Assembly: GCA_903834515.1 (NCBI GenBank)
Contig: CAILJM010000016.1
Span: 1 to 63,425 of the forward strand
Origin: an uncultured Actinomycetes bacterium
GTDB lineage: Bacteria > Actinomycetota > Actinomycetes > Nanopelagicales > Nanopelagicaceae
Length of the DNA: 63,425 bases
Direction: 5' to 3'
The notes below the pieces were generated by a model, which saw only the letters and a program-made list of their open reading frames with translations, searched no databases and was not told the origin of the DNA. Positions 15,598 through 63,044 of this stretch are shown piece after piece. Position numbers and translations under genes: made by a program. Positions within the stretch are counted from its first letter, which is position 1; each line of letters starts with the position of its first letter.

Positions 15598-17004
15598 GTG
15601 GCCAATTTTCCAGCAGATTTTCGATGGGGCGCAGCTACCGCTGCTTATCAAATAGAAGGTGCGGCCTATGAAGATGGCCGTGGTGCTTCTATTTGGGATA
15701 CCTTCTGCAAGACTCCTGGAAAAGTTCATAATGGCGAGAGCGGTGACGTTGCCTGCGATCACTACCACCGATTCCTTGATGATATTCAAATGATGAAAGA
15801 CCTGGGATTAAAGAATTATCGATTCTCATTCTCATGGCCAAGGCTCTTCCCGAAGGGCGATGAAGTTCGCGAAGAGCGCGGCTTCGCCTTCTACGACAAA
15901 TTGATCAATGCACTCCTTGAGGCAGGGATCACCCCTCTTGCGACCCTCTATCACTGGGATTTGCCGCAGGCTCTTGAAGATAAGGGTGGCTGGGTAAATC
16001 GTGAGACTGTCGATGCCTTCGGAAAGTATGCGACTGCGGTAGCCGAGCACTTTGGCGATCGGATCAAGAGCTTCTCACCAATCAATGAGCCTTGGGTTGT
16101 CGCTTGGCTTGGATATGGAATTGGCTACCACGCACCTGGCCGTGCCAGCCGCGCCGAGGCCTTTGCGGTAGCACATCACACAGTTGTGGCACATGCAGTT
16201 GCAGCAAATGCGATGCGCGCAGTTCGAAGTGATTTAAAGATCGGTCCTGTCCTTAACCAAGGCAATTACATTCCAGATGACGCGAACAATCCAGAACTTG
16301 CCCATATTGCAGATTTCTTCGATGCGTATCACAACCGATTCTGGATTGATGCCTTCTTCCATGGCAAATATCCCGAAGTGATCATGGAGAAGTACGGATC
16401 CGAAATGAATGCAGTGATCCTGCCTGGCGATATGGAGCTTGCACAAGCAAAGAACGATTTCATCGGCATTAACTATTACAACGACTCTCGCGTCGGTCTC
16501 CCTAAGTCAGATGGCGGGAGTAAGCCATCGGGGACACTCGAAAAGGATGATGCCCCTCGGGATATCCCAGGTCTCTTTGGTTTCGTCGTAGATGGCGAGT
16601 TCCCAGGCGAGAAGACAGATATGGGATGGCCGCTCACCCCAGATGGAATTCGTAATCTCTTAGTTCGCTGGAAGAACGAGCTCGGAGATCGCTGTCCAGA
16701 TCTCTACATCACCGAGAATGGCTGCGCCTATGGCGATGAGCCAGGAGCTGATGGCGAAGTTCACGATGTTAAGCGCATCGCATATCTTAAAAACCACATC
16801 ACTTCGATTTCCAAGGCAATTGAGCAAGGTGCACCCGTCAAGGGCTATTACCAGTGGTCTCTTATGGATAATTTCGAATGGGCACTTGGATATCAAATGC
16901 GATTTGGAATCGTGCATGTTGATTACCAGACACAAAAGCGAACCCCTAAAGGTTCAGCCAAGTGGTACTCAGAAGTTATTCGTACGAATGGTGCAGACCT
17001 CTAA
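15598..17004 (+). CDS. beta-glucosidase, GH1
   Basis: A 468-residue GH1 enzyme acting on beta-glucosides or beta-galactosides. It opens FPADFRWGAATAAYQIEG; the acid/base Glu164 is in INEPW and the nucleophile Glu373 in YITENG. The GTG at 15598 is chosen over the TTG three bases earlier because AAGGAG sits at a normal distance of six bases. There is no signal peptide. It is followed after two bases by the acyltransferase-3 gene, so both are probably in one transcript. Confidence 0.94.
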   Translation: MANFPADFRWGAATAAYQIEGAAYEDGRGASIWDTFCKTPGKVHNGESGDVACDHYHRFLDDIQMMKDLGLKNYRFSFSWPRLFPKGDEVREERGFAFYDKLINALLEAGITPLATLYHWDLPQALEDKGGWVNRETVDAFGKYATAVAEHFGDRIKSFSPINEPWVVAWLGYGIGYHAPGRASRAEAFAVAHHTVVAHAVAANAMRAVRSDLKIGPVLNQGNYIPDDANNPELAHIADFFDAYHNRFWIDAFFHGKYPEVIMEKYGSEMNAVILPGDMELAQAKNDFIGINYYNDSRVGLPKSDGGSKPSGTLEKDDAPRDIPGLFGFVVDGEFPGEKTDMGWPLTPDGIRNLLVRWKNELGDRCPDLYITENGCAYGDEPGADGEVHDVKRIAYLKNHITSISKAIEQGAPVKGYYQWSLMDNFEWALGYQMRFGIVHVDYQTQKRTPKGSAKWYSEVIRTNGADL

Positions 17005-17006
17005 AT

Positions 17007-18230
17007 ATGAGCGAAGGTCCAATCACCGAGAAAATTAGTAATCGTGTGAATGGTGCGGATGGTTTTCGCGCCATTGCCTGTTTGCTTGTGATGTTTCACC
17101 ATGCCTTTCAAAGGATGGGACTTCCCTTCGTAGTCCCACCAGTACAAGCTGGCCTCTATCACATCTTTCTACGTGGAGAAGTTGGCGTAAGTATCTTCTT
17201 TGTCTTATCTGGATGTCTGTTATCGATGCCTTTTTGGTCTCATCGTGTTAATGGAACACCTTTTCCGAGTTTAATTAATTATGCGCGTAATCGAATCGCG
17301 AGAATTGGTCCAGCATTTTGGGTTGTCATGATTCTCTCCACCTTCGGTGGTGCTTGGGCATTTCATACATCGGTGAACTGGGTGCACTTTTGGACGGGCA
17401 TGACCTTCACAAATGGTTTTTATTACAAGACACTCTTCCCAAGTGATTACGACGGCGTTCTCTGGTCTATTGGTTTTGAAGTCTTCTGTTATGCCGTGAT
17501 GCCATTCATCATTTATTCGATCATGAAGGCAACAAAGACTGTGCGCGCAGCGGGTCTCGGTTTGGTTCTTTGGATCTGTCTCCTTCAAGCAGCTCAACCA
17601 TTTATCATCAAGCACTTCATGACTGGTTTTGCTTTCAAGGGTTGGAACTACGGACTTGTTGGTGGCGCTAAACAGTGGATGCCTTACTGGAATCCAGTCT
17701 GCTTCTTGAGCCAATTCATGATTGGATCGGCAGCCGCATTTATCATTACTGTCGAGCGCAAAAATCACTTCCTCAAGCGTTGGATCTGGGATGTCATTGC
17801 CGTTCTCGCAGGCGTTCTGGCATTTATTCTGATTGTTGTTCGCGAGAGCCCAGGAAATCCGGATGAGTGGACTCATCAACCATACGTCTCACCGTTCTAT
17901 GCGATTTTAATTGCAATTTCACTTGCTGCTGCGGCATCTAGCGCCTTTGTTTACAAATTGCTGGATAACCGCCTCTTTAAGTACATCGCCAAGCTCTCCT
18001 TTGGCCTCTACTTGTGGCACTTATTTATCGGCACAATCATGCAGATGACGATTGCGAAAGATTTCTATTATGGTGGAGTGAGTGACATTTTCCGATGGAT
18101 GGATGATGTCTTACTCGCATACGGAAGCGCATTCATCATCGCGGCGCTGAGTTATAAGTACTTCGAGCGACCAATTCTGGATTGGAACTCCCGAAAAATT
18201 CGAGGGAGAGCAGCTAAAAAAGCCGCTTAG
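17007..18230 (+). CDS. acyltransferase-3 family membrane protein (OafA/YrhL-like)
   Basis: A 407-residue membrane acyltransferase of the family that O-acetylates or O-acylates surface glycans and sugars. The first helix holds GFRAIACLLVMFHHA with the family's Arg and His. The GEVGVSIFFVLSGCLLS and LSFGLYLWHLF segments are also typical, and about ten membrane segments are present. ATG 17007 is used; a longer frame reaches back to 16962 inside the GH1 gene and is unlikely. It is the close paralogue of the C-terminal half of the joint frame at 31583-33643 (same opening NGADGFRAIACLLV, nearly the same length). Its last four bases overlap the end of a MalG-like permease on the other strand. Confidence 0.9.
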   Translation: MSEGPITEKISNRVNGADGFRAIACLLVMFHHAFQRMGLPFVVPPVQAGLYHIFLRGEVGVSIFFVLSGCLLSMPFWSHRVNGTPFPSLINYARNRIARIGPAFWVVMILSTFGGAWAFHTSVNWVHFWTGMTFTNGFYYKTLFPSDYDGVLWSIGFEVFCYAVMPFIIYSIMKATKTVRAAGLGLVLWICLLQAAQPFIIKHFMTGFAFKGWNYGLVGGAKQWMPYWNPVCFLSQFMIGSAAAFIITVERKNHFLKRWIWDVIAVLAGVLAFILIVVRESPGNPDEWTHQPYVSPFYAILIAISLAAAASSAFVYKLLDNRLFKYIAKLSFGLYLWHLFIGTIMQMTIAKDFYYGGVSDIFRWMDDVLLAYGSAFIIAALSYKYFERPILDWNSRKIRGRAAKKAA

Positions 18231-19063
18231 CGCGACTCGCCTTCAACAAGTCCTTGTTGCCAATTACGTTGCAAGTAGAAGAAGGCAACAACGCTTGGCA
18301 AGATCGCTGTGAAGATTCCAATAATCTGGAATTGACCACCAAACCAATTAGCCATGCCCACTGTAGCTGGGTAAAGCTTTGGTTCATTGAGCATGATTTG
18401 AGGTAAGAAGTACGAGTTGCAGTTAGTGACAAAGGAGATCAAAAAGACGGTTCCGAGCATTGGTTTAATAATTGGGAAGACGACTTTTCTAAATACCTGG
18501 AACTCGCTTGCCTTATCAAGTCGTGCGGCATTCAAGATCTCATCACTGACATTGCGATCGATGTAGTACTTAACCAAGAAGAGTCCAAGTGGGCTCGGTA
18601 GCGCTGGCAAAATTACCGACCAGATGGTGCCATTGAGGTTCACGCGCGCGAAGAGAATGAAGAGTGGGACGACCAAAGTATTAGCTGGCACCATGATCAT
18701 GCTTATCGTTGCGGCTCCTACAAAATTGGCTCCGCGTTTAACCAACTTGGAGAGCCCATACCCGCCCAATGCTGAGACGAGCACAATAACGAGGGCACTG
18801 GATCCAGCGTAAAGGAGTGAATTACCAAACCATCGTGCGTAGATATTCCCATAACCAGTAAAGAGTTGATGGATATTTTGAAGCGGATGAATTGTGGAGC
18901 CAAACCAGAGAGCATTGGTGGTATCAAAATCTCCATTGACCTTCGTGGAGGACATGGCGATCCAATAGACCGGAAAGCCGAAGTAGATGATTCCTACTAA
19001 GAAGAAGAGTCCCACCCAAATCTTGCTCTGCCTTGAAATGGAAATTCTTTGGAGGTGATTCAC
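18227..19063 (-). CDS. sugar ABC transporter permease, MalG type
   Basis: A 278-residue permease with six predicted membrane segments, ending FYLQRNWQQGLVEGESR. The EAA loop reads LNAARLDKASEFQVF, with Lys where the conserved glycine is expected. The start is GTG 19063, with a TAGATT box six bases upstream and no ribosome binding site for it, so it is probably leaderless. It is divergent from the aldo/keto reductase gene. The matching MalF-like permease lies beyond that gene on the plus strand. No binding protein or ATPase gene is nearby. Confidence 0.88.
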   Translation of the reverse strand: MNHLQRISISRQSKIWVGLFFLVGIIYFGFPVYWIAMSSTKVNGDFDTTNALWFGSTIHPLQNIHQLFTGYGNIYARWFGNSLLYAGSSALVIVLVSALGGYGLSKLVKRGANFVGAATISMIMVPANTLVVPLFILFARVNLNGTIWSVILPALPSPLGLFLVKYYIDRNVSDEILNAARLDKASEFQVFRKVVFPIIKPMLGTVFLISFVTNCNSYFLPQIMLNEPKLYPATVGMANWFGGQFQIIGIFTAILPSVVAFFYLQRNWQQGLVEGESR

Positions 19064-27910: not shown

Positions 27911-27954
27911 GTCGGTAAGCGTAACCAGCAATCTCGATGGGTGATACTAGAGAT
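27911..27954. promoter_or_regulatory. divergent leaderless promoter region
   Basis: On the minus strand TACGCT (27923-27918) is seven bases from ATG 27910. On the plus strand GATACT (27943-27948) is six bases from ATG 27955. No ribosome binding site is present on either side and -35 boxes are poor. The layout copies the 19064-19100 region. Confidence 0.4.
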
Positions 27955-28653
27955 ATGAAAAGTGCCTTAATTGTTCGTGGCGGCTGGGAAGGTCATCAAC
28001 CAAAAGAGACCTCTGATTTGTTTATTCCATTTTTGGAGTCGCACGGCTTTGAAGTTCGAGTCGAAGAATCAACGGCGATCTACGCCGACGAGACCTTTAT
28101 GTCTAAGGTCGATCTCATAGTCCAAGTCATCACCTTCGGAACGCTTACCGAGGCGGAGTCAGATGGCTTAGAACGGGCGGTCGTTGCGGGGGCGGGATTC
28201 GCAGGGTGGCACGGTGGCGTGCTCGCATCTTTCCCGTTGGCCGAGAAGTACCTCCACATGATTGGCGCAATCTTTGTCAGCCACCCAGGTAAGCCAGCAG
28301 TGGAGCGAGTCGGCGAGCCGAGCGATTGGTTCGTTCCACACACGTATTCCTTGACTGAAAAGGGTCAAAACCACGAGATCACACGGGGGATCGCGGACTT
28401 TGAACTAGATACAGAACAGTATTGGGTGCTTCATGACCCCTATCTGGAGATCTTGGCGAATACGACTCAGAAGGCGAGGCCGGGGGATCCATGGCATGAG
28501 GATGTGAAATCCCCCGCAGTGTGGACTCGCCTGTGGGGCGCAGGGAAGATATTTGTGATCACCTGCGGCCACGATCTAGAGGTAGTGAAGGATCAGAGAG
28601 TTGAACAGATCATCCAGCGCGGAATGCTCTGGGCAACTCGAAATGACTCTTGA
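27955..28653 (+). CDS. ThuA-like domain protein, second copy
   Basis: A 232-residue ThuA-fold protein, the paralogue of 4918-5616: MKSALIVRGGWEGHQPKETS against KRALIVRGGWDGHQPIETT, and the same GWHGG and GKIFVITCGHDLE segments. ATG 27955 gives exactly the same length as the first copy; ATG 27937 is an alternative six codons upstream. Here the neighbour is a divergent aldo/keto reductase rather than a Gfo/Idh enzyme, so the two copies may serve parallel routes with different redox partners. Confidence 0.86.
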   Translation: MKSALIVRGGWEGHQPKETSDLFIPFLESHGFEVRVEESTAIYADETFMSKVDLIVQVITFGTLTEAESDGLERAVVAGAGFAGWHGGVLASFPLAEKYLHMIGAIFVSHPGKPAVERVGEPSDWFVPHTYSLTEKGQNHEITRGIADFELDTEQYWVLHDPYLEILANTTQKARPGDPWHEDVKSPAVWTRLWGAGKIFVITCGHDLEVVKDQRVEQIIQRGMLWATRNDS

Positions 28654-28677
28654 CCTTCATTTACCGCGTTATACAGT
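28650..28677 (+). promoter_or_regulatory. promoter of the P450 gene, leaderless
   Basis: TTGACC (28650-28655) and TACAGT (28672-28677) are 16 bases apart. Seven bases separate the -10 from ATG 28685. The -35 overlaps the stop of the ThuA gene. Confidence 0.55.
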
Positions 28678-28684
28678 GTGATCT

Positions 28685-29743
28685 ATGGCCGTCGTAAAGG
28701 TTCCCATCGCCCGTATCATCACCGGGCATAAAGCGGTTCGTGAAGCGCTGCGCAATACAGAACTTTATTCATCAGATTTGCAGGGCGATGCGGATGTTCG
28801 CGATTACCGACAGATCCCACTTGAGGTCGATCCCCCCAAGCACCACTTGTACCGAGCTGCGCTCGCTCCATTCTTTGTGAAACCGCATATCGAAAAGTAT
28901 GTAGAAATCTTCACTGAACATACCAAATCTTTACTTGATTCCTTCATGAAAGACCCTGGGGCGGATGTCGTCACTTCACTTGCACTTCCACTGGTGATGC
29001 ATAATCTCGGAGCCTTATATGGTCGTGAGCAAGATGTTTCAGAATGGATCGGGTGGGGACCAGATGTGTGGACCGCTACTGGGTCCAAGCGCGATGGCGC
29101 AGTACTTCATTCCTATCTTGATCGAATTTATGATGAGGCGCTTGCTCAACCAAATGGCGATATCTGGAGTCAACTCGCCTCTCTAGAGATTGAAGAAGAA
29201 CAGATTACTCCGCTGGAATTTCGCGGTATCGCTGGCATCATGTTGGCCGGGGGACGTGACACAATCGTTAAGATGTTCGCAGGAATCATCTGGTACTTTG
29301 GAAAAAATCCACACGAGCTTATTTCACTTCGAGAAGATCCCCAATACATAGATCGAGCAGTCCAAGAATTCTTAAGGTTTTTGACGCCAAACACTGCGAT
29401 GGCTCGAACTACAACACCTGAAAGTTCCCAGACCTCACTTCCAGATGATCGATACGTCAGCATGAGTTTCTTGTCCGGAAATTTTGACGAATCGATTTAC
29501 CCTAACCCTACGACCGTTGATCTTCGGCGCGAGAGAAACCCACATTTGAGTTTTGGTTTTGGACCACATACATGTATCGGTAATCACCTTGCAGAGTTTG
29601 AAGTGAGAATCTTTTTACAATCTCTTATTTCATCAAACTATATGTGGTCTGTGGAAAGTTCATCCGAGATAACTTTTCACCCCGATCCATTACAGAGCGT
29701 GCCACATGAATTCAAAAATCTATTGATTAGGTTGGCTTCATAG
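28685..29743 (+). CDS. cytochrome P450
   Basis: A 352-residue P450, about 50 residues shorter at the N terminus than usual bacterial members. The haem ligand is Cys297 in FGFGPHTCIGNHL; the I-helix reads MLAGGRDTIVK and the K-helix EFLRF has the Glu-x-x-Arg pair. It opens directly at the GHKAVREALRN helix, so the usual first strands are missing. The promoter just upstream argues that this short form is native rather than a wrong start call. It would need a ferredoxin and a reductase; an FprA-type reductase is encoded at 52601. The substrate is unknown, and the next genes are sugar or nucleoside types. Confidence 0.88.
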   Translation: MAVVKVPIARIITGHKAVREALRNTELYSSDLQGDADVRDYRQIPLEVDPPKHHLYRAALAPFFVKPHIEKYVEIFTEHTKSLLDSFMKDPGADVVTSLALPLVMHNLGALYGREQDVSEWIGWGPDVWTATGSKRDGAVLHSYLDRIYDEALAQPNGDIWSQLASLEIEEEQITPLEFRGIAGIMLAGGRDTIVKMFAGIIWYFGKNPHELISLREDPQYIDRAVQEFLRFLTPNTAMARTTTPESSQTSLPDDRYVSMSFLSGNFDESIYPNPTTVDLRRERNPHLSFGFGPHTCIGNHLAEFEVRIFLQSLISSNYMWSVESSSEITFHPDPLQSVPHEFKNLLIRLAS

Positions 29744-29752
29744 ATGTATACT
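29723..29752 (+). promoter_or_regulatory. promoter of the ADP-ribosylglycohydrolase gene
   Basis: TTGATT (29723-29728) and TATACT (29747-29752) are 18 bases apart, with five bases to GTG 29758. It starts inside the end of the P450 gene, and the message would be leaderless. Confidence 0.5.
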
Positions 29753-29757
29753 GACTT

Positions 29758-30663
29758 GTGCCTGAAACCGCTATAAATCAACTATTTGAGCTCGGGATAC
29801 TTCCAGAATCCTTGCGTGACCAAGATGAATCAGGCGCCAATTGGGCTATTGCTTTAGCACTCATTGCTTACGCAGCTGGTGATGCCTTTGGAGCCGCTCA
29901 CGAGTTTGTATCTGATCGATCAGAGAAAATAATTTCCGAACTTTTGGGTAAACCTGACTGGCCCTACGGGGGTGTAAGTGATGACACAACACTTTCGCTA
30001 CTTACTATTGAATCACTTCAAGCAGATACACCTGATGGTGCTGCCGAGAGTTATCTACAACTTCTAAAAAATTCACAAGAAACTTTGCGTGGCCTGGGGC
30101 CAACCACTAGATATGCACTTGGAATGTCAGTGAAACCTGAAGAGATCCACTACATAGGTATAAGTAATGGTGGAATGATGCGAACCGCGCTACTAGGAAT
30201 GCTTTTCACGCCTGATCAATCGGCGCTTCGAGAATCATGGATTCGATCCTCAGTTGAGACAACCCATAAAAATCCGATTGCCGTTGATGCCGCGCTCGAC
30301 ATGTCCGCTGCTTTCTCTGGTGCAGCTACCTATGGCAACTCATTTAAATTTCCAGAGCCATCGCTCGGTTGGGAACCACCAGCGAACGGCATATCGCTAA
30401 ATCCGCGTGAGACGTATCAGGCTGTGATGTATGTAGTTAATCGTTGCGCAACTGTTGAAAGTGCTTACCTTCTCGCATGTGAACTCGGAGGCGATACCGA
30501 CACGGTGGCAGCCCTCTCTGGTGCTCTCGTTGCGGCATCGCGGCGCAAGCAATCGGGACTATTTGAGATTGGGTGGTTATTAGATGTTCGGTGGAGCGAG
30601 ATTCCACAATCTAGGTTTGCACTTGAGCTTATGATGAAGCGACGAGAGGGATGGAATAAATAG
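29758..30663 (+). CDS. ADP-ribosylglycohydrolase (ARH/DraG) family protein
   Basis: A 301-residue all-helical hydrolase of the DraG/ARH fold. Metal-binding motifs are present: GDAFGAAHEF near the start, SDDTTLS around residue 80 and GGDTDTVAALSGAL near 245. The family removes ADP-ribose from proteins or cleaves related N- and O-glycosides of ribose. The GTG shares one base with no leader before it. Its stop (TAG) shares its final G with the GTG start of the PfkB kinase, so the two are coupled. This favours a small-molecule riboside or glycoside substrate whose sugar is then phosphorylated (inference), rather than protein de-ADP-ribosylation. Confidence 0.87.
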   Translation: MPETAINQLFELGILPESLRDQDESGANWAIALALIAYAAGDAFGAAHEFVSDRSEKIISELLGKPDWPYGGVSDDTTLSLLTIESLQADTPDGAAESYLQLLKNSQETLRGLGPTTRYALGMSVKPEEIHYIGISNGGMMRTALLGMLFTPDQSALRESWIRSSVETTHKNPIAVDAALDMSAAFSGAATYGNSFKFPEPSLGWEPPANGISLNPRETYQAVMYVVNRCATVESAYLLACELGGDTDTVAALSGALVAASRRKQSGLFEIGWLLDVRWSEIPQSRFALELMMKRREGWNK

Positions 30664-31538
30664 TGTCGAGAGTCTGGATCATTGGACCACTTGCTTGGGA
30701 CACAGTTCTCAACGTTTCGCACCTGCCCGAATCTGGGGGATTTGTACAAGGAAGCGGCCTTGTAGGTAGAGCGGGAGGCACTGCGGCGAATGTCGCAGTC
30801 GGCCTTGCAAGTTCTGGAGTAAAAACGGGATTTTCGGGCTATGTGGGTCAAGACGAATTAAGTGACAAATTGATGGAGAGCCTGGAAGGTAGCGATATTG
30901 AAACGCTACACATAAAGCACCTGACAGGAAGAGCAAATCACGTACTGATTTTGATTGATGCACAGGGCGAGCGAACCATCGTGGGTCTCACAGAAGATCG
31001 TCTCGATCAAGTGACGATTCGCGATGTTGAGATTTCGCAGGATGACTACGTCGTCTTCGTACTGTGGCGAAACCATTTCCTGCCGGATTTGGAATATGTA
31101 AAAGGTATTGGGGCGAAGGTCATTGTTGGTATTGAAGCCTTAGATGAATTACCTCTTATTACCGCTGATATTTGTATCGGATCTGGCTCAGATTTACGGA
31201 GAGAGCTAAATGCAGATCTATATCTCGATCGCTTCGGAAAGCTTGTTATTACCCGCGGAGCCGACGGTGCACGCCAATACTGGCGAGAGAATGGTGAAAC
31301 GAAGGTTATTCACCAGCCAGCGATCGCCGTGAAGGAAGTAGTAGATACAACCGGCGCTGGTGATTCATTCTTAGCTGGTTATATCAAGGGTCTCATGGAT
31401 GCAGAGAACAAGATTGAAGATCCGATGCTCATCGGTGCACACTGGTCCGCACTTGCAGTATCGACACCTGGTTCTCAGCCGCCCGATTGGACAGATGTTG
31501 TAAATGCATTGCCACCTAAAATCTTGAGAGATAAATAA
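30663..31538 (+). CDS. PfkB-family carbohydrate kinase
   Basis: A 291-residue ribokinase-like kinase. The first signature is GRAGGTAANVAVGLASSG. The second is DTTGAGDSFLAGY, with the catalytic base Asp234 in its centre. Family members phosphorylate ribose, fructose, nucleosides and similar sugars. It is coupled to the ADP-ribosylglycohydrolase gene by a one-base stop/start overlap, suggesting that it uses the sugar released by that enzyme. The substrate cannot be named from sequence. Confidence 0.9.
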   Translation: MSRVWIIGPLAWDTVLNVSHLPESGGFVQGSGLVGRAGGTAANVAVGLASSGVKTGFSGYVGQDELSDKLMESLEGSDIETLHIKHLTGRANHVLILIDAQGERTIVGLTEDRLDQVTIRDVEISQDDYVVFVLWRNHFLPDLEYVKGIGAKVIVGIEALDELPLITADICIGSGSDLRRELNADLYLDRFGKLVITRGADGARQYWRENGETKVIHQPAIAVKEVVDTTGAGDSFLAGYIKGLMDAENKIEDPMLIGAHWSALAVSTPGSQPPDWTDVVNALPPKILRDK

Positions 31539-31547
31539 GAAAAGGAC

Positions 31548-31576
31548 TTACCCTAGTTGAGTTAAACCGCTACATT
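31548..31576 (+). promoter_or_regulatory. promoter of the permease-acyltransferase frame
   Basis: TTACCC (31548-31553, weak) and TACATT (31571-31576) are 17 bases apart, with six bases to GTG 31583. The TACATT-N6-GTG end is the same as at the aldo/keto reductase gene at 19101. Confidence 0.4.
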
Positions 31577-31582
31577 TCAGCG

Positions 31583-33643
31583 GTGAAAACATGGCGCAAA
31601 TATCCACTTGCGAAGGCGCTTATGTTTGTCGGAATTTGCTACTTTGCATACCCTCTTTATTGGCTTGTAATCAACTCATCCAAGGGTTACGGTGCGCATG
31701 ACGGACTTTTTTCTGGCGCAAATCCATTCGATTTGATAAGTAATATGGTGGGACTCTTCTCCCAACCAGATAGTTTATTTGGCCGATGGTTCCTTAATAG
31801 CGTTATATATTCGCTAATCTCTGCGATCGGTGCAACTTTGTTCGCGGCGATGGCTGGGTATGCACTCGCTGTGTATAAATTTAAGGGTTCGGGCTTTATT
31901 CAATTTCTCATACTTTCACTTATCATGGTTCCACCCAACACAATTGTTCTTCCACTCTTTCTCTTTTTTACAAAAATCAATATCGTAAACACTCCGGCAT
32001 CAGTTATCCTCCCTGGGCTCGTAAGCCCAGTTGGCGCTTTTTTCATGATGTACTACGTAAGAACGTCTGTTCCATTTGAGCTCATCCAAGCAGCTCGACT
32101 CGATCGCGCTTCAGAATTCAGAATATTTACTCGGATCGCGATGCCGATCGCGAAGCCGATGCTTGCCATAGTTTTCTTGATTGTCGTTATTGCAAACTGG
32201 AACGCCTACTTCTTACCACTAGTAATGCTCAATGACATGAAGCTCTATACCCTTCAAGTGGGTCTTGGTACTTCCGAAGGTGGCGGCGGATTAATCGCCG
32301 GGTCGATTATTTCTACAATCCCAGTCTTAATTGCTTACCTATACCTTCAAAGGCACATGAGTAGTGATTTATGGAATGAATCGGCCTCGTCAACTCGAAT
32401 ACGAAAGGAGAAGCGCGTGAAAGTGCTTCCAGATACCCAGCCAAAGAGAGATAAGCAGCGCATTAACGGTGCTGATGGATTCAGAGCGATTGCTTGTCTT
32501 TTGGTCTTACTTCATCACGCCATCCAGCGAATGAATGCTGATTTTGCACCTCGTTGGGTGAAGGCAATTTTCTTCATAGGCTGGAGAGGCGAAGTCGGCG
32601 TAAGTATCTTCTTCGTACTATCTGGTTGCCTGCTCTCATTCCCTTTTTGGAACGCATTTGTTAACGATCACAAAATGCCGAATTTGAAGGATTATTTCAG
32701 TCGCCGAGCAGCTCGAATCGTCCCTGGTGCCTGGCTCGCCTTAGGAGTCACGACTTATATCGGCGTTGTGCATCTTCATTATCCAATGAATTGGACTCGT
32801 TTCTTGGCGGGCGTCTTCTTTATCTTTAGTTTTCATTACAAGACATTTTTCCCAAGTGAATTTAATGGGCCTCTCTGGACTATCGGCTTAGAAGTTTGGT
32901 GCTACATCGTGATGCCGTTGATTATTTTGCTTTCATGTAGGTTCACAAAGAAGATTAAATTCGTTTGGGCCTGGCTTTTAGCATGGTTGGTATTTCTGCA
33001 AATATTGCAACCGGTGATCATTCATAACTTTATGACCGGAATTGATAGCAAAGGTTGGATGTACGGTATGACAGGCGGCGCAAAACTCTGGATGCCTTAC
33101 TGGAATTTTGCAACATTTCTATCTCAGTACTTATGTGGCGTTGCAGCTGCTTTCCTCATTGTTGTTGCTAGAAAGAAAGTAATTCTCTCTCCAATTAAGT
33201 GGGACATCATTGGAGCGCTCTCGTTAATAACTGCATTCGTTCTGGTCTGCACTAGAGAGGTACCGGGAGTGCCTGACACATTAACTAAACAACCGTACAA
33301 CGCTCCAATATTCTCTTTGCTTATCGGAGTCGGAATAGCTTCCGTTGCCTTGGGAGGACGACTCTGGAAGAGTTTTGATAATCGACTCTTTGTCTACATC
33401 GCGAAGATTTCGTTTGGGCTATACCTGTGGCATTGGTTCCTTATAACCATTATTCAGGCTGATATTGCTACTGACTTTACAGTGAATGGCCTCCCAGATC
33501 TCTTTAGGTGGCTGGGGCTCGTTACATTTACCTATGTGATTGCTTGGGGAATAGCTGTATTGAGTTGGCGCTTTATCGAAAGCCCAGTCTTGGAATACAA
33601 TCAGCGTAGGATCGCGCGTAGAAAGATGACTCAGGAGGCTTAG
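31583..33643 (+). CDS. MalG-type ABC permease joined in frame to acyltransferase-3
   Basis: One uninterrupted 686-residue frame holds two complete membrane proteins. Residues 1 to about 265 are a MalG-type permease with the EAA loop IQAARLDRASEFRIF (Arg in place of glycine) and the family's C-terminal AYLYLQRHM. Residues 279-686 are an OafA-like acyltransferase-3 with GFRAIACLLVLLHHA, GEVGVSIFFVLSGCLLS and LSFGLYLWHWF. At the junction AAAGGAG lies six bases before an in-frame GTG (residue 279). Starting there gives 408 residues, against 407 for the free-standing paralogue at 17007. So this is either a true fusion, or two genes that lack a stop codon between them with the second also made separately. 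No MalF partner, binding protein or ATPase gene is adjacent. Confidence 0.85.
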   Translation: MKTWRKYPLAKALMFVGICYFAYPLYWLVINSSKGYGAHDGLFSGANPFDLISNMVGLFSQPDSLFGRWFLNSVIYSLISAIGATLFAAMAGYALAVYKFKGSGFIQFLILSLIMVPPNTIVLPLFLFFTKINIVNTPASVILPGLVSPVGAFFMMYYVRTSVPFELIQAARLDRASEFRIFTRIAMPIAKPMLAIVFLIVVIANWNAYFLPLVMLNDMKLYTLQVGLGTSEGGGGLIAGSIISTIPVLIAYLYLQRHMSSDLWNESASSTRIRKEKRVKVLPDTQPKRDKQRINGADGFRAIACLLVLLHHAIQRMNADFAPRWVKAIFFIGWRGEVGVSIFFVLSGCLLSFPFWNAFVNDHKMPNLKDYFSRRAARIVPGAWLALGVTTYIGVVHLHYPMNWTRFLAGVFFIFSFHYKTFFPSEFNGPLWTIGLEVWCYIVMPLIILLSCRFTKKIKFVWAWLLAWLVFLQILQPVIIHNFMTGIDSKGWMYGMTGGAKLWMPYWNFATFLSQYLCGVAAAFLIVVARKKVILSPIKWDIIGALSLITAFVLVCTREVPGVPDTLTKQPYNAPIFSLLIGVGIASVALGGRLWKSFDNRLFVYIAKISFGLYLWHWFLITIIQADIATDFTVNGLPDLFRWLGLVTFTYVIAWGIAVLSWRFIESPVLEYNQRRIARRKMTQEA
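32404..32419 (+). promoter_or_regulatory. internal ribosome binding site and GTG at the permease-acyltransferase junction
   Basis: AAAGGAG (32404-32410) followed by a six-base spacer and GTG (32417-32419), in frame with both halves. It is one of the best Shine-Dalgarno matches in the window and sits exactly where the acyltransferase protein would begin. Confidence 0.6.
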
Positions 33644-33646
33644 TTC

Positions 33647-34666
33647 ATGGCTACACCAAATCGATCTGTATCTATGATCGATGTAGCTGTTCATGCAGGG
33701 GTTTCGCATCAAACAGTCTCACGGGTACTTAACAACCATAAAAATGTAAGTGATAAGACGCGCAAACGTGTTTTGGCCTCAATGGAAGAACTCAATTACC
33801 ATCCTAATATTGCCGCTCGTACTTTAGTTACCGGTAAGTCTTCGTCAATTGGGGTACTAAGTTACGACACTACGCTCTTTGGCCCTGCTTCAATGTTGCA
33901 TGCAGTTCAATTAGCAGCGAGGGCAAAGGGCTATTCAGTCAACTTAGTTTCTCTTAAAGCCACAGATACTGAATCAGTTAATAAAGGCTTGCAAGATCTT
34001 TACGCGACAGGCGTTGAAGGTCTCATCATGATTGTTCCTCACACAAAAGACTCTGCGCAGATCAGAAAACTTCCGGGTGACTTACCTGGCGTTGTCATTG
34101 AGGGGGAAAGTTCCAAGTTCATTCCTTCTGTCAATATTGATCAAGTCGTTGGCGCTGAAATGGCGGTGGAATATTTACTTGAACTCGGTCATAAGAAAAT
34201 TGCACACATCTCGGGCCCGCTCGGCTGGTATGAGGCAGACCTTCGAGTCACTGGGTGGCGTAACGCAATGGAGCGAGCTGGCTTAAAATCTAAAGTGATG
34301 GAGCAAGGGGATTGGTCGCCTCGTTCGGGGTACGAGGCCACGAAGCGAATATTGAAGGCAAGGCAGGGAATTACCGCGATTTTTTGTTCGAACGATGCGA
34401 TGGCACTCGGTGCCTTGAAGGCGCTTTCGGAGAATGGCATGGATATCCCTGCAGAGATGAGCGTTGTTGGTTTTGACGATGTACCAGAGGCCTCTTTTTT
34501 CCAGCCTTCGCTCACAACGATCATGCAGTCATTTGAGGATGTAGGAAATTCAAGCCTAGAACTGCTTGTCTCCCAGATTGAAGGCGGGAAAACCCGGATC
34601 AAACGCGAAGCGATTCAACCGACACTCCTCATTCGAGAGAGCTCGGGCCCAGTTCCTCAAAAGTAA
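33647..34666 (+). CDS. LacI-family transcriptional regulator, probably of arabinose use
   Basis: A 339-residue LacI/GalR repressor. The helix-turn-helix (about residues 6-30) reads IDVAVHAGVSHQTVSRVLN, with the hinge helix NYHPNIAARTL near 55. The periplasmic-binding-like core carries IFCSNDAMALGAL and VVGFDDVPEA. AGGAGG lies eight bases before the ATG, and the gene follows the acyltransferase frame by three bases. It stands directly upstream of two LacI-type operators and the arabinose operon, so it most likely represses that operon until arabinose or an arabinoside binds (inference from position). Confidence 0.92.
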   Translation: MATPNRSVSMIDVAVHAGVSHQTVSRVLNNHKNVSDKTRKRVLASMEELNYHPNIAARTLVTGKSSSIGVLSYDTTLFGPASMLHAVQLAARAKGYSVNLVSLKATDTESVNKGLQDLYATGVEGLIMIVPHTKDSAQIRKLPGDLPGVVIEGESSKFIPSVNIDQVVGAEMAVEYLLELGHKKIAHISGPLGWYEADLRVTGWRNAMERAGLKSKVMEQGDWSPRSGYEATKRILKARQGITAIFCSNDAMALGALKALSENGMDIPAEMSVVGFDDVPEASFFQPSLTTIMQSFEDVGNSSLELLVSQIEGGKTRIKREAIQPTLLIRESSGPVPQK

Positions 34667-34878: not shown

Positions 34879-36222
34879 ATGCAAAAAACCCTCAGAAGCG
34901 GTTCGTTTAAGAAGGCTACGGCCATCTTTACAACTGCAGCTGTTGCGGCCCTCATGGGTACATTTGGTGTTTCAGCACCAGCTCATGCAGCTTCAGCAGT
35001 TCACGTAAAGGTTTGGGCTTGGTATCCAAACTTTAAAGAAGTAGTAGCTAAGTACAACGCTACTCATACAGATATCCAGATTGACTGGACAAATGCCGGC
35101 GCCGGTGGCGACGAGTACACAAAGTTGAAGACTTGTATCAAGGCGAAGTCAGGTTGCCCTGATGTAGCGATGATTGAGTTCCAGACACTTCCTACATTCT
35201 CAATCTTGAACCCATTTGTTGATATGGGTAAATATGGTGCCTCTAATGCAGATGGCCGTTACGCTGGCTGGGCCTGGGCTCAAGCAACAAGCGGAAAGGT
35301 TGTCAACGCGATCCCTGTAGATGGCGGACCTATGGCGATGCTTTATCGCAAGGACCTCTTCGCAGCGAATAACATCAAAGTTCCAACAACATGGGCCGAA
35401 TATGCAAGTGCTGCCGCCGCAATCCACAAGTTGGATGCCAATCAGTACATCGCAACTTACGGTAACGATCCAGGTTGGGCTACTGGCTTGATGTGGCAAG
35501 GCGGATGCCTTCCTTACAAGTACAACGGTACTGCCGCGAAGGCAACCGTTGGTATCAACCTCAACCAGGCTTCATGTAAGAAAGTTCTTAGCTACTGGGG
35601 CGACTTGGTTTCACAGGGTCTCGTAGATACAAAGCCATTCTTCTCAACCGATGCTGGCGCTGACTTCGATACCGGAAAGTATTGGACTTGGGTCGCTGCT
35701 GGTTGGACACCTGGATACCTCAGTGGAGTCTTGAAGACCACAACAGGTAAGTGGGCTGTTGCACCAACACCTCAGTGGACTGCAGGCGCAGATGCTCAAG
35801 GAGACTGGGGCGGATCTAGCTTTACCGTCATGAACCAGACCAAGCATCCAAAGGAAGCTACAAGTGTCGCTATGAACTTGTATCCACCTCAGAAGACTAT
35901 CGATGCAGGAAGCCCTTGGGATATTGGTCTCAACTCAGCATTCTTGTATCCACTCGTCACTGGTGTTGAAAGCAACGCTGCGTTCGTTAACCATACGTAC
36001 CCAGTCTTTGCTGATCAGCAACCAAACCCAATCTATATCCACGCTTCTAAGAAGCTCGGTGCATTCCAGTGGACTCCATTCCAGGATTTCATCTACAGCA
36101 CCTTGCACGACGAGACAGCGCAGGCAATTGCTAAGAAAGAACCTTGGGCATCCGTCCTTGACAATGTTCAGACAAAGGCAGTTGCTTATGCAAAGAAGCA
36201 GGGCTTTAAAGTCACTGCTTAA
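34879..36222 (+). CDS. arabinose-type ABC transporter substrate-binding protein
   Basis: A 447-residue family-1 binding protein. The signal peptide spans residues 1 to about 37 and ends SAPAHAA; again there is no lipobox cysteine. The mature part opens VHVKVWAWYPNFKEVV and has AMLYRKDLF and YWGDLVSQG. Four cysteines in two near pairs (KTCIKAKSGC, GGCLPY and ASCKK) could form disulphides, unlike the cysteine-free binding protein at 7068. It heads the operon with two permeases, GH51 arabinofuranosidase and araBDA, so arabinose or arabino-oligosaccharide is the likely ligand (inference). Confidence 0.92.
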   Translation: MQKTLRSGSFKKATAIFTTAAVAALMGTFGVSAPAHAASAVHVKVWAWYPNFKEVVAKYNATHTDIQIDWTNAGAGGDEYTKLKTCIKAKSGCPDVAMIEFQTLPTFSILNPFVDMGKYGASNADGRYAGWAWAQATSGKVVNAIPVDGGPMAMLYRKDLFAANNIKVPTTWAEYASAAAAIHKLDANQYIATYGNDPGWATGLMWQGGCLPYKYNGTAAKATVGINLNQASCKKVLSYWGDLVSQGLVDTKPFFSTDAGADFDTGKYWTWVAAGWTPGYLSGVLKTTTGKWAVAPTPQWTAGADAQGDWGGSSFTVMNQTKHPKEATSVAMNLYPPQKTIDAGSPWDIGLNSAFLYPLVTGVESNAAFVNHTYPVFADQQPNPIYIHASKKLGAFQWTPFQDFIYSTLHDETAQAIAKKEPWASVLDNVQTKAVAYAKKQGFKVTA

Positions 36223-36243: not shown

Positions 36244-36277
36244 GGGAACCGCTCCCTCTAGTTGGGGAGCGGTTCTC
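36244..36277 (+). terminator. hairpin between arabinose binding protein and permease genes
   Basis: A stem of 13 pairs (arms 36244-36256 and 36265-36277, one G-T) with an eight-base loop. There is no T-run, so it is probably an mRNA-stabilising or partial termination element, as at 8456-8489. Confidence 0.72.
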
Positions 36278-36297
36278 CTCTAAATGAAAGGAAGATT

Positions 36298-37167
36298 GTG
36301 AAAAGACGGCAAGTAATTATTGGATGGCTATTCGTTCTTCCGTTTGTATTAGTCGTCTTCTTTTTCTTAGTCTTACCCCTCATTTATGCAGGCTACCTAA
36401 GTTCGCAAGCGGACTCGTTAGTCGGCGGGCAACACTTTGTTGGATTAACCAACTACATCGATACCTTTAAGGATCCACTCTTCCTCGAGGGCTTAAAACG
36501 TGTAGCAATATATGCTGCTATTTCAATTCCGATAATGATCTCAGTATCGCTTACAGCTGCGTTAACTATTGATGTCATTCAGACCCGACTAGCTCGGGTT
36601 TTTAGATTAATTGCATTTATGCCTTATGCAGTTCCTGGTGTAGTCGCAGCTCTCATGTGGGGGTTCCTCTACAGCCAACAATTTGGTCCAATCTATTGGG
36701 TTGCAAAGCGCTTAGGTTATCCAAACCTCGATATGTTCGCCCCAAATGTATTTATCTACTCCATATCTGGAATTGCATTTTGGGCATGGACTGGCTACAA
36801 CATGATCGTTCTTTACTCAGCGCTTCAAGGAATCTCTCGTGAGATATATGAGGCTGCAATTGTGGACGGCGCTAGCCAAAAGCAGATCGCATGGCGAATC
36901 AAAATCCCGGCAATTAAAGGCGCAATCGTCCTCACGGTACTTTTCTCACTCATCGGTTCTATGCAGCTTTTCACCGAGCCTCGCATCTTGTCCCGATATA
37001 CCAATGCCGTTACCTTGGGTTATACCCCGAATATCTATGCCTTTAATCTTGCTTTTAACCAGTCTCAATTCAACTATTCTGCCGCGGTTTCGTTCGCGCT
37101 TGGTTTGATCGTTCTGGTTGTCTCGTATGGATTCCTGCTTCGCAGCCGGAGAATGGCGGATAAATAA
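36298..37167 (+). CDS. arabinose-type ABC permease, MalF/UgpA type
   Basis: A 289-residue permease with about six membrane helices and an intact EAA loop YEAAIVDGASQKQIAWRIKIP. GTG 36298 is the start because AAAGGAAG lies just upstream; the frame extends back to a TTG at 36262, but that lies in the hairpin. Its stop overlaps the ATG of the next permease by one base. It is close to the MalF-like protein at 20104-20976. Confidence 0.92.
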   Translation: MKRRQVIIGWLFVLPFVLVVFFFLVLPLIYAGYLSSQADSLVGGQHFVGLTNYIDTFKDPLFLEGLKRVAIYAAISIPIMISVSLTAALTIDVIQTRLARVFRLIAFMPYAVPGVVAALMWGFLYSQQFGPIYWVAKRLGYPNLDMFAPNVFIYSISGIAFWAWTGYNMIVLYSALQGISREIYEAAIVDGASQKQIAWRIKIPAIKGAIVLTVLFSLIGSMQLFTEPRILSRYTNAVTLGYTPNIYAFNLAFNQSQFNYSAAVSFALGLIVLVVSYGFLLRSRRMADK

Positions 37168-38060
37168 TGTCACTCAAAACTCCGTTTAAGCGCGCCTCTA
37201 AAGGCCAGAAGAGCCTCGTGGTCCCAAGCAGCAAAACAGCTAATACCCTGATGATTGTCGGCATCGGCTATTTCATGATGCCACTCATTTGGGTAATGCT
37301 CGCTTCGACGAAATCTAAGCCTGATCTGTTCTCAACATTCTCACTCTGGTTTGGTCACTCATTTAAGCTATTTGCAAATCTCCATAGCCTTTTCACTCAA
37401 GATGGTGGACTTTACTTAATCTGGATCAAGAACACGGCGATCTATTCCATTACCTCAGCAATCGGCGCAACTTTGATCTCTGCGATGGCCGGCTATTCGC
37501 TTGCTCGATTCAAATTTAAAGGCGTGGTCTTCCTTGAGTCTATGGTTCTCGGCTTAATTATGGTTCCAGCTACAGCGCTCGTTATGCCTTTGTACCTGAT
37601 GCTTTCGAAGGTAAATGTTGTGAATACCCCTTGGGCCGTGATTCTCCCTTCACTGCTCAACCCCTTCGCCGCATTTCTCATTCGTGTCTACGTGTTAGAA
37701 AGTATTCCCGAGGAGCTCATTCAAGCAGCGCGCATCGATCGTGCTGGGGAATTTCGCATTTTCTGGCAAATAGTTCTACCAATGCTTCGTCCAGCATTGG
37801 TAACAGTATTTCTCTTCTCCTTGGTTGCAAGTTGGAATAACTTCTTCCTACCTTTGGTGATGCTCTCAGATAATCACCTCTATCCAGTCACGGTGGGATT
37901 GCAAGCATGGTTCGCGCAAGCCTCTCAAGAATCTGGAAACTCGGTTCTCTATAACTTGGTTATTACCGGCGCTCTGGTTGCAGTCTTGCCACTCATTACC
38001 TCATTCCTATTTTTGCAACGCTACTGGCGCGGCGGAATCAATGCAGGCGCAGTCAAGTAA
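37167..38060 (+). CDS. arabinose-type ABC permease, MalG type
   Basis: A 297-residue permease with a longer basic N terminus (KTPFKRASKGQKS) and six membrane segments. The EAA loop reads IQAARIDRAGEFRIF, with Arg where glycine is conserved, as in the copy at 31583. It ends FLQRYWRGGINAGAVK. It completes the importer of the arabinose operon; no ATPase gene is present. The GH51 gene follows 31 bases later. Confidence 0.92.
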   Translation: MSLKTPFKRASKGQKSLVVPSSKTANTLMIVGIGYFMMPLIWVMLASTKSKPDLFSTFSLWFGHSFKLFANLHSLFTQDGGLYLIWIKNTAIYSITSAIGATLISAMAGYSLARFKFKGVVFLESMVLGLIMVPATALVMPLYLMLSKVNVVNTPWAVILPSLLNPFAAFLIRVYVLESIPEELIQAARIDRAGEFRIFWQIVLPMLRPALVTVFLFSLVASWNNFFLPLVMLSDNHLYPVTVGLQAWFAQASQESGNSVLYNLVITGALVAVLPLITSFLFLQRYWRGGINAGAVK

Positions 38061-61163: not shown

Positions 61164-63044
61164 CTAAAAGCCTACTAATCCTTTGAAAAGAGCGAGAATA
61201 TCTTTACCACGGACTATCTCGTAAATGAGGAATAGAACGACCATGCCTCCGACTCGGTAGACCCAGATTCCATAGTTGTGCCTCTTCAATCCTCCGGCAT
61301 TTTGGTCGTCAGAGACTAGACCAAGAAGTGAGAATACCAAGCCGGGGATACTCAACAGTACGAATCCCCAAGTCAAAAAGTCGGATGGATTTGTGAAGAG
61401 AGATTTAGAAAGCGAAGCAAATAATGTTCCAACAATTGTCATAGTGACAATTCGAATCGCGCCTTTTGGAACAGCGAAGTGCATCATCCGGCTCTTTGGC
61501 AAGATATGACCCACGGTAAGTTTCAGAAAGTTAGGAAGGACGAAGAAAGTGGTTCCAAGAACTAACTGAATATTTAACCCCACGAAAGTTTTCATCACTA
61601 AGCCAAAGATGAGTCCCTTTAAAAGGAGGGAGACGAATTGCTGACTTTTGGATGGCTTCGGTTGTTTGACGGTAAATTTAGAGGATCGTTGCGGATATAG
61701 ATAGGTTGAAATATCTTCGAGAATCATTCTTGTGATTACAGCGACTCCCACAATTAATCCGATAGTTGAAGCATGAGCAACAATAGGAAGTTGTTTGCCC
61801 GCCACAACATTCAGGGTCCCTACAAACTTTGAAAGCGTCCATCCCGTCAATAGCGCCGAGAGTATGTAATCTGCAGCACGCTCCCACGGGTGTTCGTGGG
61901 CCGAGATCCTGCGTCGAAGGGGGCGGAAAGATCCTGCGATGATTGAAGGTGAGGCACATATCGCAGCAAATGCCAGAATTGTCAGAATGTTATTCAGATT
62001 ATGAATGTGTCCGGCTGCTATTACCCCGATCACAAAAATGGCTGAAGCAAGTAAGCCAGCGAAGGCATCTGCCAAACCAAGAACTGTCATCGCAGCCATA
62101 ATTTTCCAAGCTGGTGGAATCGGTTGAGCGTGATTGCTTGCTAAGGCCTGAGCGCCTAGAAGAACGCTTAGTGGCAAAGTGAAGATTGAAATTGAACCAA
62201 TCATCGCGCGTAGATAACTTGCATCGATGAGCATTTTTGAAAGTAATGGTGAGAAGCGAGCCACACGAAGGGATGTCAGAACAAATACCGAATCCAAAGT
62301 TGGGGTGAGTGGAGCCTTCCAGGTAAAGGATTTATCACCTAGCCCTGGTGGAGTGTCGGCCAGGCCAGATAGGTCATCATTGCTTCCGTGCTTTGCATGA
62401 GAAGCGTGAAGTAGTTTCTCTTCGGACTCGGACTCGGACTCGGATTCGGACTCGGACTCGGATTCGGATTCCGAGTCCGAACCTGACTCTGATTTTTCGT
62501 CACGCTTGGCTTCAGAGCGAGTATTACCGCTACCTGTACTTCCGCCGGATCCTCCACCTGAATTACCGCCGGATCCTCCACCTGAACTGAGACCACCCGA
62601 TGCCGCGCCTGTCGCTGCAACTGCTGCCCCTCCCGCAGAGAGCACACTGAGGGCGGTGAATCCCGCAACTTGTGTCTGCGATGTTTTGGTCGGTTCAGAT
62701 GTTGGGCTATATGGTGGCAACGCTTGAACATCGGTCACATTTTCCAAGGTAGTGGGGTCAGCTACTGTCCCTGCCGCCTCTAGATCGGGACAATTGTTAT
62801 CCCAATGAATTTCTCCTGCGTTATCTTTACAAAAACTAATATCTTGAGTGGTTACTTCACCTGTATCTGGATCGGTGACTTCAGTTGAGGCTACGTGATA
62901 GCCGGAAGGCAGGTCGGCTGGCAGATCAATATTTACGTCCTGGCTCGTATCTTGGGCGGTGGTACTTAGAACCTGGTCGTCAGCATGAGCCCCGAGAGTC
63001 GAAATATTTAAAGCGAAAATGAAGAGAAGTAGAAAGCGTCTCAC
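61164..63044 (-). CDS. exported multi-pass membrane protein with Ser-Glu repeat, unknown function
   Basis: A 626-residue protein not recognised. It has a signal peptide (RRFLLLFIFALN...GAHA), a short acidic domain with a Cys pair (residues about 70-85), a Gly/Ser linker (about 150-172), a run of Ser-Glu dipeptides (about 185-207), and from about 250 a membrane domain of roughly ten hydrophobic helices. The GTG start overlaps the stop of the upstream Ala-rich gene (GTGA), so the two are one operon. The layout suggests an envelope protein with an outside flexible stalk linked to a membrane channel, anchor or enzyme domain; none can be assigned. Confidence 0.7.
   Translation of the reverse strand: MRRFLLLFIFALNISTLGAHADDQVLSTTAQDTSQDVNIDLPADLPSGYHVASTEVTDPDTGEVTTQDISFCKDNAGEIHWDNNCPDLEAAGTVADPTTLENVTDVQALPPYSPTSEPTKTSQTQVAGFTALSVLSAGGAAVAATGAASGGLSSGGGSGGNSGGGSGGSTGSGNTRSEAKRDEKSESGSDSESESESESESESESESEEKLLHASHAKHGSNDDLSGLADTPPGLGDKSFTWKAPLTPTLDSVFVLTSLRVARFSPLLSKMLIDASYLRAMIGSISIFTLPLSVLLGAQALASNHAQPIPPAWKIMAAMTVLGLADAFAGLLASAIFVIGVIAAGHIHNLNNILTILAFAAICASPSIIAGSFRPLRRRISAHEHPWERAADYILSALLTGWTLSKFVGTLNVVAGKQLPIVAHASTIGLIVGVAVITRMILEDISTYLYPQRSSKFTVKQPKPSKSQQFVSLLLKGLIFGLVMKTFVGLNIQLVLGTTFFVLPNFLKLTVGHILPKSRMMHFAVPKGAIRIVTMTIVGTLFASLSKSLFTNPSDFLTWGFVLLSIPGLVFSLLGLVSDDQNAGGLKRHNYGIWVYRVGGMVVLFLIYEIVRGKDILALFKGLVGF
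62423..62490 (-). repeat. 6-bp coding repeat for Ser-Glu dipeptides
   Basis: About eleven copies of a six-base unit GGACTC or GGATTC (plus strand), coding Ser-Glu or Ser-Asp on the minus strand. Such short tandem repeats change length easily. Two near-identical Gly/Ser units of about 24 bases lie next to it around 62535-62590. Confidence 0.85.

Follow-up and report, generated by a model that had tools for sequence, protein, structure and literature searches.

Acyltransferase-3 (AT3) enzymes are thought to take acyl groups from acyl-CoA in the cytosol and pass them across the membrane to external acceptors, according to the parts of two papers available to us (PMC9558356, PMC9833829), and two of their motifs, R-X10-H and RXXR, are given in the second of these as essential in other AT3 proteins (PMC9833829). 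The commonest fusion partner of AT3 is described as the SGNH domain (PMC9558356), further partners being a racemase, in VanTG, and NRF domains (PMC12423673). For AT3-only proteins without SGNH, the available text of one of these papers treats the last transfer step, and the possible need of a partner protein, as an open question (PMC9558356). Among the matches listed in our literature searches, which covered open-licence papers, we found no report of a fusion between AT3 and a transport permease. Here we describe one, in a stretch of DNA of 63,425 nucleotides (the window) from an actinobacterium with a small genome; coordinates refer to its forward strand unless stated otherwise.

The reading frame at 31583-33643 starts with GTG, codes for 686 amino acids and has no internal stop. 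Pfam identified two domains only: BPD_transp_1 at residues 90-258 (1.7e-11; 44.6 bits against a curated cut-off of 26.4) and Acyl_transf_3 (PF01757) at residues 295-658, covering model positions 2-325 of 326 (4.8e-29; 101.9 bits against a cut-off of 31). The MalG-type half (codons 1-278, 31583-32416), assigned by Pfam, matches to SugB and MalG chains, its place in a tree and its loop length, has six predicted membrane spans. The AT3 half, counted from an internal GTG (32417-33643), has 408 residues and ten predicted spans, and a free-standing AT3 paralogue elsewhere in the window (17007-18230) has 407. The idea in the earlier note that two full-length membrane proteins share one frame is thus confirmed, including the near-equal length of the two acyltransferases. 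Hydropathy, with a cut-off of our own choice, places a linker loop of 40 residues (256-295) between the six and the ten spans. Lysines and arginines number 43 over the nine stretches placed inside, 11 of them in the linker, and 15 over the eight placed outside, a distribution that fits a cytoplasmic location of both termini and of the linker; the fit is poorer for two loops, 315-337 with 4 on the outside and 93-108 with 2 on the inside. The EAA-type loop of the MalG half reads QAARLDRA (169-176), with Q and R replacing the E and G of the consensus, as they also do in MalG3, another permease of the window. In the AT3 half we found R-X10-H (R301/H312), RXXR (R375/R378, at 375-378), VxxFFxLSG (340-348) and a W....E pattern. 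Neither an SGNH domain, by Pfam, nor an 11th span, among the ten predicted after residue 295, was found. The AlphaFold model, built from 7 alignment rows, had a pLDDT of 35.6 and a pTM of 0.22 and was set aside.

The same fusion is present at full length in a second species (genome G027, contig CAJBLC010000094.1 of E-1_bin-164), as a protein of 688 amino acids with 84% identity to that of the window's own genome (G000) over residues 1-686. The identity was 89% over codons 1-257, 81% over the junction tail (codons 258-278, 32354-32416), which is free of stops in both species, and 82% over codons 294-686. Between the last two lies a variable linker (codons 279-293, 32417-32461) with the same length in both and only 20% identity. 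Synonymous sites were saturated, with pS values of 0.79 and 0.75 in the two halves. Their Ka values of 0.08 and 0.12 fall within the range of eight neighboring genes (0.05-0.28), among which the importer genes and an arabinofuranosidase had 0.05-0.07 and the PfkB, LacI, ADP-ribosylglycohydrolase and P450 genes 0.15-0.28.

When the fusion was searched against the genus, 31 of 32 genomes gave a match, and among the matches listed both halves stood in one frame only in G000 and G027. With up to three candidates per genome scored at E up to 1e-30, the same two were the only genomes of the family with both halves in one match (2 of 296). In evenly drawn and overlapping sets of the class (394 genomes) and the phylum (396), one-match fusions appeared only in the window's own genome; scoring there took in two candidates per genome at E up to 1e-40, a setting that weak fusions could escape. 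None of 199 pattern matches in viral contigs was a relative. This particular AT3 occurs in three of the 32 genomes of the genus (E up to 1e-20), fused in two and apart from a convergent MalG gene in the third (G007). The situation that the earlier note would have taken against the fusion, relatives that always carry two separate genes here, is therefore not what we see, since two of these three genomes carry it. In two genomes of another genus, g11 (G236 and G248), AT3 matches extended about 20 residues upstream across a stop. We read this as overhang and not as fusion, in G236 because the gene upstream is a divergent ORF.

The fusion lies in a cluster of sugar utilization genes. Directly behind it is a LacI-type regulator (33647-34666), followed by a putative solute-binding protein (SBP3, 34879-36222) and the permeases MalF3 and MalG3 (36262-38060). 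SBP3 was named by its roughly 35% likeness to SBP1 (SBP_bac_1, PF01547); neither Pfam nor NCBIfam had a model that it matched at E up to 0.001, and it appears to be a divergent binding protein. The SBP_bac_8 model has four matches in other parts of the genome; this contig has none. Other genes of the cluster code, by Pfam, for beta-galactosidases (GH42, GH2), a GH1 enzyme, arabinofuranosidase, an FGGY kinase, a class II aldolase and arabinose isomerase, a set of enzymes that suggests arabinogalactan-type sugars. The contig carries three MalF and four MalG genes and no MalF adjoins the fusion, so that the fused MalG must either share a MalF or not transport; more distant MalF-like genes are on contigs C4 and C2, the former with two MalGs. 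Genes for ThuA, P450, ADP-ribosylglycohydrolase and PfkB (27937-31538; Pfam) precede the fusion and are absent from the stretch of G007 contig C4 that was read; the last three evolve faster (Ka 0.19-0.28) than the importer genes. A protein encoded near the end of the window (61164-63044) matched no Pfam model; a long Ser-Glu repeat marks its N-terminal third.

Two translation starts can be recognized in the fused frame. Before the internal GTG 32417 there is a Shine-Dalgarno (SD) sequence AAAGGAG (32404-32410) with a spacer of six bases, and in the second species AAAGGAA precedes an ATG at the same aligned codon. We computed SD strength as a simple duplex energy to what we take to be the sequence of the 16S tail. 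The internal site, at -9.0, ranked first of the 501 in-frame internal ATG and GTG codons in 35 coding sequences of the window (itself included) and was matched by 2 of 36 listed gene starts; the value of G027, -5.9, was reached by 16 of the 501 internal codons and 11 of the 36 starts. A chance SD was discarded on the basis of this rank and of the second species, so that the internal ribosome binding site predicted earlier stands at the level of sequence. The 5' start, GTG 31583, has no SD. Six bases upstream of it there is a -10-like TACATT (31571-31576), replaced by TAGATT at the same place in G027, and 18 bases before that a possible -35 element, CTTACC (31547-31552), read by eye, with its spacing kept in the second species. 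In the window 15 of the 36 listed genes lack an SD, and TANNNT was found 4-8 bases upstream in ten of these 15, the fusion among them, versus 2 of the 21 with SD, which indicates that leaderless starts seem to be common in this genome. TA-like signals about 10 bases upstream have been taken as marks of leaderless starts, and more than 20% of the genes of Actinobacteria have been given as leaderless, in the part of the source available to us (PMC3160421). The start of the fusion looks leaderless in type. Together with the internal SD start, it means that both the fusion and a free AT3 are encoded, and most likely both products are made. The suggestion of the earlier note that the cell makes the two forms holds as coding potential, and for the proteins themselves it stays a reading of these signals.

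We have also compared the fused MalG with its relatives. Downstream of the free AT3 paralogue, tail to tail with it, is an extra MalG gene (MalG2, 18227-19063, reverse strand), which belongs to the same subfamily as the fused half. The two genes (16962-19063) overlap by 4 bases, as they do in G027 and at G007 contig C4, and by 12 at G007 contig C14. The subfamily is marked by the loop between two anchors around TM5-TM6, with 29 residues in all 15 subfamily rows versus 34-46 in 91 other MalG rows; the fused MalG, with its 29, falls short of the normal length. This loop probably corresponds to the scoop loop of MalG. In MalG3 it has an ordinary length (40), and the loop of the extra MalG is 11 residues shorter than that of the MalG3 of G000, G027, G007 and G239. 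Fifteen matches in 10 of 296 family genomes scored above 400 bits against the subfamily profile, a line that we drew in the gap between 404 and the next score, 346; besides MalG2, loci of the subfamily are L147:2200-3036, L066, L068, L070, L072, L074, L076, L078 and L148. In a tree of 28 MalG rows the fused MalG grouped (97/98) with the MalG2 genes and the solitary MalGs of g11. We considered whether the fused MalG could have arisen from MalG2 by a simple inversion; this was not supported, the fused MalG being a long branch of its own beside the MalG2 and g11 groups.

This AT3 was found in 18 of the 296 family genomes, and all ten genomes with an extra MalG are among these 18. Split by AT3 clade, the extra MalG is present in 10 of 10 genomes versus 0 of 8; G248 and G149 were assigned to their clades by identity, and the partial matches G166:C19 and G149:C40 were left unplaced. 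The hypergeometric value for the co-occurrence, 4e-14, overstates it because the genomes are related, and the pattern may arise simply because the genes move as a single cluster. In the genus of the window (g1), all six AT3 loci, in three genomes, adjoin a short-loop MalG, two by fusion and four tail to tail. In g11, AT3 was beside none of the nine extra-MalG loci, at five of which the MalG is at a contig end with one neighbor unseen; at G239:C11 the MalG2 adjoins GH42 instead. In the stretches examined around the g11 members, this last one apart, there was neither a MalF gene nor a gene for a binding protein. A tree of 19 AT3 rows put the fused AT3 next to that of G007 contig C4 (85/88, under the starred level) and apart from the group of the free paralogue (100/100). 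These two neighbors in the tree are found at the same place, upstream of LacI-SBP3-MalF3-MalG3-arabinofuranosidase-araBDA. The AT3 of G007 is a close relative (59%) and is a separate gene that faces an extra MalG, and fusion is therefore not needed there.

Taken together, we consider it fairly probable that this fusion, kept in two species, gives dual products and that its MalG part is a dedicated partner, positioning the AT3 next to an importer. Under this proposal, a malG-like gene would have merged with the AT3 gene downstream of it into one reading frame in the ancestor of the two species. Ribosomes starting at GTG 31583 would run through into the AT3 and give a fusion of 16 spans, and those entering at the internal SD and start would give the AT3 separately. 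With acyl-CoA of the cytosol as donor, the AT3 part may acylate a sugar or glycan at the outer face. The MalG part, with a loop trimmed at the point from which a MalG usually extends to the binding protein, might pair with MalF2 or MalF3, since no MalF adjoins the fusion, and would put the AT3 beside the importer of arabino- or galacto-oligosaccharides. We hypothesize from this that uptake could be coupled to acylation. The earlier note had thought of a physical link between import and acylation of the sugar; given the outward mechanism proposed for AT3, the product is likely to be a sugar or glycan acylated at the outer face, and the imported sugar is unlikely to be acylated within the cell.

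The joined state itself has probably been kept by selection. If stops in the junction were harmless, and with Ks set at 1.5, the probability of finding none would be 0.04-0.08 over codons 271-278 and, over the longer range of codons 260-278, about 0.001. The first is the safer range and is only suggestive of selection for the fusion; since synonymous sites are saturated, the real path was probably longer than assumed, and both probabilities would then be smaller. The main competing explanation is genome compaction alone. On this view, chance removed the stop, the cell tolerates a fusion whose halves function independently of each other, and the internal start is left over from the time when the AT3 gene was separate. 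This explanation has some chance of being right, though we doubt it. The divergence of codons 279-293, the free AT3 of other relatives, the separate genes of G007 and the similar length of each half and its free paralogue are all what it would predict. Against it, the second start was kept with its SD, as GTG or ATG, despite saturated synonymous sites, neither lineage has regained a stop, the junction tail is conserved, and an extra MalG adjoins AT3 also at the four unfused loci. We put forward tentatively a wider and rather unlikely reading: the extra MalG in general could be a dedicated partner of stand-alone AT3 enzymes, in a membrane complex where a glycan captured at the outer face is acylated at the importer or held by it, and the fusion would then be a frozen form of a partnership that other members of the subfamily keep as two proteins. 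It is quite improbable that a single chain is cut in the linker and that the working proteins are separate. In its favor, the loop there is long, basic and variable; against it, we know of no cutting site in the linker, and with a second start the AT3 would have no need of cutting. Finally, a stop deleted by a sequencing or assembly error, for which the earlier note proposed to check the reads, is hardly credible in spite of both genomes being drafts (39 contigs, and contig 094 of 170), because the open frame and the equal-length linker recur in a second species at 84% identity over saturated synonymous sites.

We regard the permease-AT3 fusion as a real, conserved and new domain combination, with a function that we can propose from its context. 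Its conservation, together with the adjacency and co-occurrence of the unfused genes, names a concrete candidate partner for AT3-only proteins. It also seems to be a single gene built to supply a membrane enzyme in two forms, fused and free, and it opens a possible link between sugar uptake and sugar acylation to testing. Compared with known systems, the MalG half matches residues 18-267 of 274 of SugB (8ja7_B, 7cad_B) and 78-287 of 296 of MalG (2r6g_G), and has in common with the MalG-type (CUT1) permeases of ABC importers the six predicted spans and the EAA-type loop. It differs from them in a C-terminus that continues into a second protein, in a TM5-TM6 loop shorter than in the 91 rows compared, and in the lack of an adjoining MalF. 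With stand-alone AT3 proteins (PF01757, TmAT superfamily) the fusion shares a nearly full model, R-X10-H, RXXR, FFxLSG and ten predicted spans, but here the AT3 is joined at its N-terminal side to an ABC permease. The AT3-SGNH proteins OafA, OafB and OatA, the AT3-serine racemase VanTG and the animal NRF-AT3 proteins likewise carry AT3 and a second part in one chain; their partners, as far as the available parts of the sources describe them (PMC9558356, PMC12423673), are not transport permeases, unlike the one found here.
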